Shown here in pieces: positions 21,512-50,319 of a stretch of 64,000 nt of DNA. The stretch is from NCBI GenBank assembly GCA_026708055.1, contig JAPOVS010000023.1, positions 1 through 64,000 of the forward strand, given 5' to 3'. The DNA is from a bacterium. Lineage in GTDB: Bacteria > Actinomycetota > Acidimicrobiia > Acidimicrobiales > CATQHL01. Position 1 is the first letter of the stretch; the number at the start of each line of letters is the position of its first letter. The notes beneath the pieces are model-generated. The model was not told where the DNA came from and did not search any database. It was given only the letters and a program-made list of their open reading frames with translations. Made by a program: the position numbers and the translations under genes.

Positions 21512-21781
21512 ATGGCGCACACCATCACCATCACCTACTGCGTGGCTTGAGACTATTCCGACCGCGCCGTGAGCGCGGCCGCAGAAATGCTCGGCGCATA
21601 CCAACACGTGATCGGCGAACTGCGGATCATCGGCGGCGGGGGCGGTGTCTTCGACATCACCGTCGACGGCCGGACGATCTTCTCCAAACACGCCTGCGCG
21701 GACCGCTTCCCCGAGCCGGGCGAGTTGGCGGGCACGCTGGCGCACCTCGTGGCGCCGGGCACCCGCCGCTACGGCACCTGA
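21512..21781 (+). CDS. SelW/Rdx-family selenoprotein with in-frame TGA (Sec)
   Basis: Read through the TGA at 21548-21550, this frame encodes 89 residues beginning MAHTITITYCVA-U-DYSDRA, where U is selenocysteine. The rest (GGGGGVFDITVDG, then RTIFSKHACADRFPEPGEL) matches the thioredoxin-like SelT/SelW/SelH (Rdx) family, whose redox motif is CxxC or CxxU at exactly this place. A hairpin (CCGCGC 21562-21567, loop CGTGA, GCGCGG 21573-21578) begins 11 bases after the TGA, its loop 18-22 bases away, where bacterial SECIS elements lie. A GGGAG precedes the ATG. Standard gene calling would split or miss this gene. The start is divergent from ilvD. The product is probably a cytoplasmic thiol oxidoreductase. 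SelA, SelB and tRNA-Sec are not in this window. Confidence 0.8.
21551..21590 (+). promoter_or_regulatory. Candidate bacterial SECIS element
   Basis: Immediately 3' of the TGA, a 6-bp GC stem (21562-21567 with 21573-21578) closes a 5-base loop containing G and U. Position and size suit a SelB-binding SECIS within the coding sequence. The same stem-loop, with one G-U wobble, occurs after the TGA in the remnant at 50220. Confidence 0.55.
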
Positions 21782-48371: not shown

Positions 48372-49862
48372 TCAGCTGTCATACGTGGCACAGGCCTCGT
48401 AGCCCTCGGGGGCCGGGATCCACACCAGGAAGTCGGTCGAAGCGGCGGACTGGTTGTACTTGAACTGGTACTCACAGCGCAGCGTGTCGTGCGCCGCCGT
48501 CTCGGCGATGCCGTTCTCACGCTCATAACTGGCGTCGCCCCAGGTGAAGGTGATGCCCATTCCCGGACCGGCGTCCCATGGCTGCGACTCCCAAGCCTCC
48601 ATCATGTTCTCCCGGGTGATGTCCGGGCCCACCTGCTTGGCGGTCTCGATGAAGATTCGAGCACCGGCATAGCCGGACTGGGTGATGTGGTGGATCTTGA
48701 GGAGCTGGTCGGGGTTGTACTTCTCGAGTGCGGCAAGGTACTCGGTGTTGTCGTTCCAGATCTTGAACGTGGTGATCGTCCACATGCCCTTCAGCGGCCA
48801 GTCGCCCACGAACTCGCCCAGAGCCTCCGCCGCGAAGTGGTTGCCGCTGACACCCAGAGGCGGCCAGTAGCCCTGCTGCTCGGCGGCGATCATCCAGCCC
48901 GCCATGGGCGCCGCCCAAGCGAAGTGAATGACGTGGTCCGGGTTGGCGGCCTGCATCTCGATGACGGCAGGCGTGTGGTCGGGCGTCTCGATCTCGATCG
49001 GCTGCTCGAGGACGACCTCGATGCCCGCAGGATCGTAGACGGCGCGCATGGAGTCCGCCGCGAGGCGATCCTCGGGAATGTTGAGGTAGATGATGCCGAC
49101 CGACTCCGGCTGCAGGATGTCCCGCACCCAGATGGAGTTGGCGGTCGCCTCGTGGATGGTGGCCATGTGCGTCGGGAACATCCAGGGGTCGCGCCACTCG
49201 CTGGTGAAGAAGCCCCAGGAGCCGAACCACGGGACCTGGTCGCGGGCCAGATCCTGGTGCAGCTCGCCGGTGCCCCAGGTGATGCTGGTGATGAAGCCGA
49301 AGACCTGGTCCTCGTCCACCAGCTTCCTGAAGCAGGCGCGGGCGCGGGCGACGTCGCCGGCGGCGTCGCAGTTCGTGACGCTGATCGTGCGCCCGTGCAC
49401 GCCGCCTTCGTCGTTGACCGCGTCGAACATGGCGATGGCCGAGGCCACGACCGGGATCGTCACGATCTCCGGAAGCGGCAGACCGTCGTCGCTTATCGCC
49501 CCGAGCTTGATCTCTGTCGCGCTGACGCCGGGCGCCGGACTGTCGCCCGCTGCTGCGGGCTCCGGCTCATCGGCGGGTGGCGGCTCGGCAGCCGGCGGGG
49601 GCTCCGCCGCGGGTGGCGGCTCGGCAGCCGGCGGGGGCTCCGCCGCGGGTGGCGGCTCGGCAGCCGGCGGGGGCTCCGCCGCGGGTGGCGGCTCGGCAGC
49701 CGGCGGGGGCTCCGCCGCGGGTGGCGGCTCGGCAGCCGGCGGGGGCTCGGGCGGCGGAGGCGCAGTAACCGTACCCCCATCGTCCCCGTCCCCGCCGCAA
49801 GCGGCGGCGATGAGGAGAACCGCAACCGCAACGGTCACGATCCTGGATATCAACTTGCCCAT
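48372..49862 (-). CDS. LivK-like substrate-binding lipoprotein with PPPAAE repeat linker
   Basis: The 496-residue receptor has a lipoprotein signal (VTVAVAVLLIAAACGGDGDD), then a linker made of repeated EPPPAA units (about residues 36-100), then a type 1 periplasmic-binding domain (EIKLGAISDDGLPLPEIVTI, FDAVNDEGGVHGRTISVTN, FGFITSITWGTGELHQDLA). The linker may span the envelope space. AGGAGG precedes the ATG at 49862; one codon earlier is TTG. It lies at the head of the livH-M-G-F cluster and must set the specificity. The large aromatic binding-domain sequence (FGSWGFFTSEWRDPWMFP) suggests an unusual ligand, which I cannot name. Confidence 0.88.
   Translation of the reverse strand: MGKLISRIVTVAVAVLLIAAACGGDGDDGGTVTAPPPPEPPPAAEPPPAAEPPPAAEPPPAAEPPPAAEPPPAAEPPPAAEPPPAAEPPPAAEPPPADEPEPAAAGDSPAPGVSATEIKLGAISDDGLPLPEIVTIPVVASAIAMFDAVNDEGGVHGRTISVTNCDAAGDVARARACFRKLVDEDQVFGFITSITWGTGELHQDLARDQVPWFGSWGFFTSEWRDPWMFPTHMATIHEATANSIWVRDILQPESVGIIYLNIPEDRLAADSMRAVYDPAGIEVVLEQPIEIETPDHTPAVIEMQAANPDHVIHFAWAAPMAGWMIAAEQQGYWPPLGVSGNHFAAEALGEFVGDWPLKGMWTITTFKIWNDNTEYLAALEKYNPDQLLKIHHITQSGYAGARIFIETAKQVGPDITRENMMEAWESQPWDAGPGMGITFTWGDASYERENGIAETAAHDTLRCEYQFKYNQSAASTDFLVWIPAPEGYEACATYDS
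49573..49749. repeat. 36-bp minisatellite inside the binding-protein gene
   Basis: Units of 36 bases starting gcgggtggcggctcggcagc repeat almost perfectly at 49573, 49609, 49645, 49681 and, partly, 49717. Each encodes two PPPAAE hexapeptides on the minus strand. The length is a multiple of three, so unit gain or loss keeps the frame. Confidence 0.85.
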
Positions 49863-50319
49863 CAAGAAGCCTCCTCCCGCTGCTCATTCGAGCCGGCTCT
49901 CGGAATGTGTCAGTCGGCTACGCGTCGCTGTGCACCCAGCCGACTCCTCAGAAAGTAGGTTTCGCTTTCGGACGGTTGTATGGCCGGGTGAGACAAGGAG
50001 ACGGAATCGGCTTATCTACTGCTGACAAGACGTCGCCATTGTCCTCGCCGCAGGGTGAGAGCCACGACCTCGGCGGCGGTATCGACGACCACGGTCTGGG
50101 TGACCATGTAGGGGAAACCACAGATCCAACGGGAACCGCAGTGCCTACGCCCCCCGCCAACCTTCCGATTCGCGGCACGGGACCGAGGAATCGGACCGGC
50201 TACGTCACGGCGAGCGGCGATGAAGGACGAGACCACCATCACCCACTGCGTGGCCTGAGACGATTCCAACCGCGTCGTGAGCGCGGCCGGCCTGACGCGC
50301 GGCGCCCTCCGGCGCCTGC
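49863..50319. other. Intergenic region holding the livK promoter and a selenoprotein gene remnant
   Basis: These 457 bases contain the upstream region of the binding-protein gene, whose promoter I cannot define exactly, and the truncated SelW-like fragment at 50220-50285. Short frames cross it but none has a convincing family or ribosome binding site. Confidence 0.6.
50220..50285 (+). pseudogene. Truncated SelW-like gene remnant with in-frame TGA
   Basis: From an ATG at 50220 the frame reads MKDETTITHCVA, then TGA (50256-50258), then DDSNRVVSAA. This aligns with the start of the selenoprotein at 21512, including the CVA-TGA-D motif and the hairpin that follows, where one C-G pair has become a U-G wobble. 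After about residue 22 similarity stops and the sequence runs into the end of the convergent SCP2-like gene. It is probably a partial duplicate or decayed copy, not a working gene. Confidence 0.65.

Follow-up and report, generated by a model that had tools for sequence, protein, structure and literature searches.

The analyzed stretch of DNA (64,000 nucleotides; hereafter, the window) almost certainly encodes a SelW-like selenoprotein at positions 21512-21781, in which an in-frame UGA is read as selenocysteine with the participation of SelD, SelA, SelB and a hairpin immediately downstream. The assignment draws on six lines of observation: the machinery genes, the conserved TGA, cysteine in the same column of relatives, a hairpin under selection, family membership, and the predicted fold. 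From these, selenocysteine insertion at UGA 21548-21550 and a redox activity of the product would be expected. The protein belongs to an already known family and is not new in kind. The features discussed below are as follows.

21512-21781, plus strand: selW-like (Rdx family) selenoprotein gene, 89 aa, predicted selenocysteine at residue 13
21548-21550, plus strand: in-frame TGA, predicted to be read as selenocysteine; CVAU, second redox position of the CxxU redox motif
21562-21578, plus strand: bacterial SECIS apical stem-loop, 6-bp stem CCGCGC/GCGCGG, loop CGUGA
50234-50289, plus strand: probable decayed copy of the selW TGA and SECIS region, 56 bp, 91% identical to 21526-21581

Reading frame, family assignment and homologues

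The selW frame starts with ATG at 21512, is interrupted by TGA at 21548-21550, and continues through 76 sense codons to the terminator TGA at 21779-21781. The read-through product, MAHTITITYCVA-U-DYS...RRYGT, is an Rdx/SelT-W-H protein of 89 residues. The first-pass annotation had proposed one SelT/W/H frame across the TGA, and its coordinates proved exact. With Cys substituted at the TGA, the product scores 56.4 bits against Pfam Rdx PF10262 (cut-off 22.6) and 44 bits against TIGR02174 CXXU_selWTH (cut-off 34.2). It also aligns across nearly the full length of the NF041051 SelTWH_Campy equivalog profile, but with 68.8 bits against a cut-off of 88, and hence is not a SelTWH_Campy equivalog. 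When open reading frames are listed under table 11 without read-through, this frame yields only a 70-aa 3' piece with a GTG start at 21569. The selenoprotein call is clean, and standard gene callers would miss or shorten the gene.

The motif C10-V-A-U13 follows the first strand (residues 3-10) of the predicted product, and the placement of the TGA at the second redox position of this motif, suggested in the initial annotation, recurs in the homologues of related genomes. A SelW homologue was found in 27 of 99 related genomes, each with exactly one in-frame stop, which is TGA and lies at the CxxU site. A separate scan of named genomes, with a peptide pattern left free at the TGA residue, produced 80 loci, mostly from Acidimicrobiia/Acidimicrobiales MAGs, and all 80 have TGA at the site; the closest named relatives include the Acidimicrobiia MAGs SB0668_bin_6 and SB0661_bin_55. 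Of 57 Rdx matches in a phylum-wide sample of 396 Actinomycetota genomes, 40 contain one TGA and 17 are stop-free. The alignment with Cys-containing homologues that had been recommended as a check shows TGC or TGT at the TGA column in 14/14 of the stop-free sequences that were read. The search revealed no viral relatives of selW. In a second order-level SelW subgroup (FCVPUDYVPRAVGLADELLxGWAP), the TGA is followed by a hairpin of another sequence (GCCGTCGGTCTGG).

Had a Cys-type SelW gene acquired a nonsense mutation, a stop would equally lie within the conceptual frame, and a short, probably decayed copy of selW is located elsewhere in the same window. However, the same TGA is present in more than 100 homologues, and no other stop was ever seen at the site. 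Moreover, dN/dS 3' of the TGA is 0.14-0.41 among five genus members, indicating that the downstream part is translated and is under purifying selection. These two observations already refute the pseudogene explanation, and the complete selenocysteine machinery of the genome, described below, also speaks against it; we consider it wholly improbable and retain the selenoprotein reading.

The hairpin downstream of the TGA

The hairpin lies 12-28 nt 3' of the TGA, with a UGA-to-loop spacing of 17 nt, and consists of the arms CCGCGC (21562-21567) and GCGCGG (21573-21578) enclosing a 5-nt loop, CGTGA (21568-21572), with G in the second position. Bacterial SECIS elements are described as hairpins just downstream of the UGA with a small apical loop containing guanosine (PMC1088965), and the window hairpin has both this position and such a loop. 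The GC hairpin that had been noted at SECIS distance is present, and relatives conserve it far more strongly than chance would allow: it is under selection and behaves as a bacterial SECIS.

The evidence comes from position-specific stem and codon tests. Folding energy was rejected as weak evidence for a SECIS, and these tests were used instead. The free energy of the window hairpin is unexceptional for GC-rich sequence (z from -0.29 to -1.4); compared with per-gene synonymous recoding, it gives z of -0.3, and averaged across genes the energy lies only mildly below that of the recodings (mean z -0.76). At the fixed stem position, on the other hand, 23 relatives have a mean of 4.91 consecutive pairs versus 1.22 in synonymous recodings (0/5000), and 93 distinct sequences have 5.29 versus 1.31 (0/2000). 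Double, compensatory changes are seen in four of the six stem pairs; the outer pairs are broken in some relatives.

Codon choice within the hairpin gives the plainest indication. The loop Val codon is GTG in 90 of 93 sequences, although the remainder of these genes uses GTC twice as often. Ser at +8 is encoded by AGY in 74/74 cases, and Ser at +3, five codons earlier, by TCN in all but one. Whenever the Ala codon GCC of the 5' arm is replaced by the Thr codon ACC (+6), Ser at +8 is AGT (6/6), which restores an A-U pair. The mild shift in folding energies is what would be expected if the hairpin were a mere by-product of GC-rich coding sequence and conserved amino acids, but neither the position-specific stem nor the compensatory changes across codons fit such an origin, and we regard it as very unlikely. 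The interpretation of the hairpin as a SECIS thus stands, and the analysis contributes a well-resolved element with cross-codon covariation.

When the own genome was scanned with a covariance model built on the SECIS region, only selW and the decayed fragment gave convincing matches, the latter at 50250-50297 of the window (E 5.6e-4). The fragment is intergenic, an ATG in frame with it occurs at 50221, and by our reading of the alignment four of the five differences from selW alter the amino acid. The seven other genomes of the genus yielded no such copy. The segment 50234-50289 is probably a decayed selW pseudogene fragment; the selW finding does not depend on it. Elsewhere in the window, a periplasmic binding protein-like ORF (48372-49865, minus strand) contains a tandem Ala/Pro-rich coding stretch (AEPPPA repeats) close to its N-terminus, at about 49577-49768.

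Selenocysteine machinery and predicted function

The set of genes by which a bacterial selenoprotein is recognized, SelA, SelB, SelD and tRNA-Sec in one genome, is present in the host genome of the window (3.9 Mb, 87 contigs, 96% complete), in agreement with the selenocysteine system postulated in the first-pass annotation. The same annotation had stated that absence of selA, selB and tRNA-Sec would make selW a pseudogene; the presence of these genes and of selD removes that argument. The single tRNA-Sec scores 64.3 bits, over the Rfam cut-off, and ARAGORN independently calls its anticodon as UCA. The adjoining genes selA (387 bits) and selB (260.6 bits) share a contig (C26) with the tRNA gene and lie about 10 kb from it, and selD scores 337 bits.

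Targeted searches identified at least three selenoproteins in this genome. The selD gene itself encodes one, MTHRLTQYSHGAGUAGKLG, with TGA as U (G000:C40:58500-63500, about 1732-2790). Another is the formate dehydrogenase alpha subunit FdhA, with TGA at NRTUHAPSVVGL (G000:C55:39563-41431, minus strand), which corresponds to the catalytic selenocysteine site of FdhF. Thus, TGA occupies known selenocysteine sites of three different families, SelW, SelD and FdhA, in one genome. The FdhA match covers the profile from position 51 onward; positions 1-48 are matched by a segment situated about 13 kb off on the same contig.

UGA might also be decoded without selenium, as Trp or Arg, by near-cognate reading or reassignment. 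Reassignment of UGA occurs in some bacteria, but nothing specific favors it here: TGA terminates selW itself and many relatives, the UCA tRNA-Sec is accompanied by SelA and SelB, the TGA residue aligns with Cys and not with Trp, and the TGAs of selD and fdhA likewise fall at known selenocysteine sites. The probability of such decoding appears negligible. In the selenocysteine reading, SelD would supply selenophosphate, SelA would turn Ser-tRNA-Sec into Sec-tRNA-Sec, and SelB, attached to the hairpin directly 3' of the UGA, would deliver it to UGA 21548-21550.

The product is predicted to adopt the thioredoxin-like Rdx fold, with CxxU as the redox pair. The AlphaFold2 model has pLDDT 94.2, and its best structure matches in Foldseek are the SelW-related 2fa8, 2oka, 2obk, 3dex and 2p0g, with 2fa8 as the top one (E 5e-9, TM 0.87-0.89, rmsd 1.4). 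Most likely, the protein is a small thiol/selenol oxidoreductase, a redox role via CxxU that follows from the family. Gene neighborhood was dropped as a clue to the substrate because it is not conserved across 81 loci: no neighbor family occurs at more than 17 of them, and the fourteen commonest families include no gene of the window.

Distribution in the order and known SelW-like proteins

The initial suggestion that a selenocysteine system is uncommon in Acidimicrobiia-type actinobacteria is not supported, since selA matches occur in 61 of the 99 related genomes, about 60% (mostly from the same order; 58 over the curated cut-off). SelW is confined to genomes with selA (27/27; Fisher p=2.1e-7, related genomes being treated as independent) and was found in none of the 38 sampled genomes lacking selA. 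It was also not found in three draft genomes of the same genus that have selA, two of which are only about 76% complete. With 27/27 selenocysteine forms, no Cys forms and no gene in the 38 selA-less genomes, the SelW-like protein in this order could be obligately a selenoprotein, so that loss of selenocysteine decoding leads to loss of the gene and not to a switch to Cys; we hold the chances of this scenario to be even.

SelW-like proteins are the most abundant marine bacterial selenoproteins. They are described in the Sargasso Sea and GOS selenoproteomes (PMC1088965, PMC2398784), selenocysteine forms far outnumber Cys forms in marine data (427 versus 56 in GOS), and few or no Cys homologues of SelW-like proteins were reported in selenocysteine-using organisms (Zhang et al., 2006; PMC1794560). 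The family described here shares with the marine proteins short Rdx length, CxxU and a bacterial SECIS directly 3' of the UGA, but is an order-level family with its own signature (YCVPUDYS, AYQHVI/NYQHVI and C-terminal RYGT). A limited literature search revealed no report naming such a family in Acidimicrobiia. Among proteins with known structure, 2fa8 from Agrobacterium and 3dex from Streptomyces avermitilis have the same fold with 31-36% identity over 80-84 residues; 3dex has CTQC against CVAU of the window and is placed with the phylum-sample subgroup that has only Cys forms.

In summary, the selW finding leaves the general picture of bacterial selenocysteine use unchanged, and its contribution is a broad collection of Sec-only SelW-like genes from a poorly cultured actinobacterial order. 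If the protein is indeed obligately a selenoprotein, it may be among those that keep the selenocysteine system in Acidimicrobiia.
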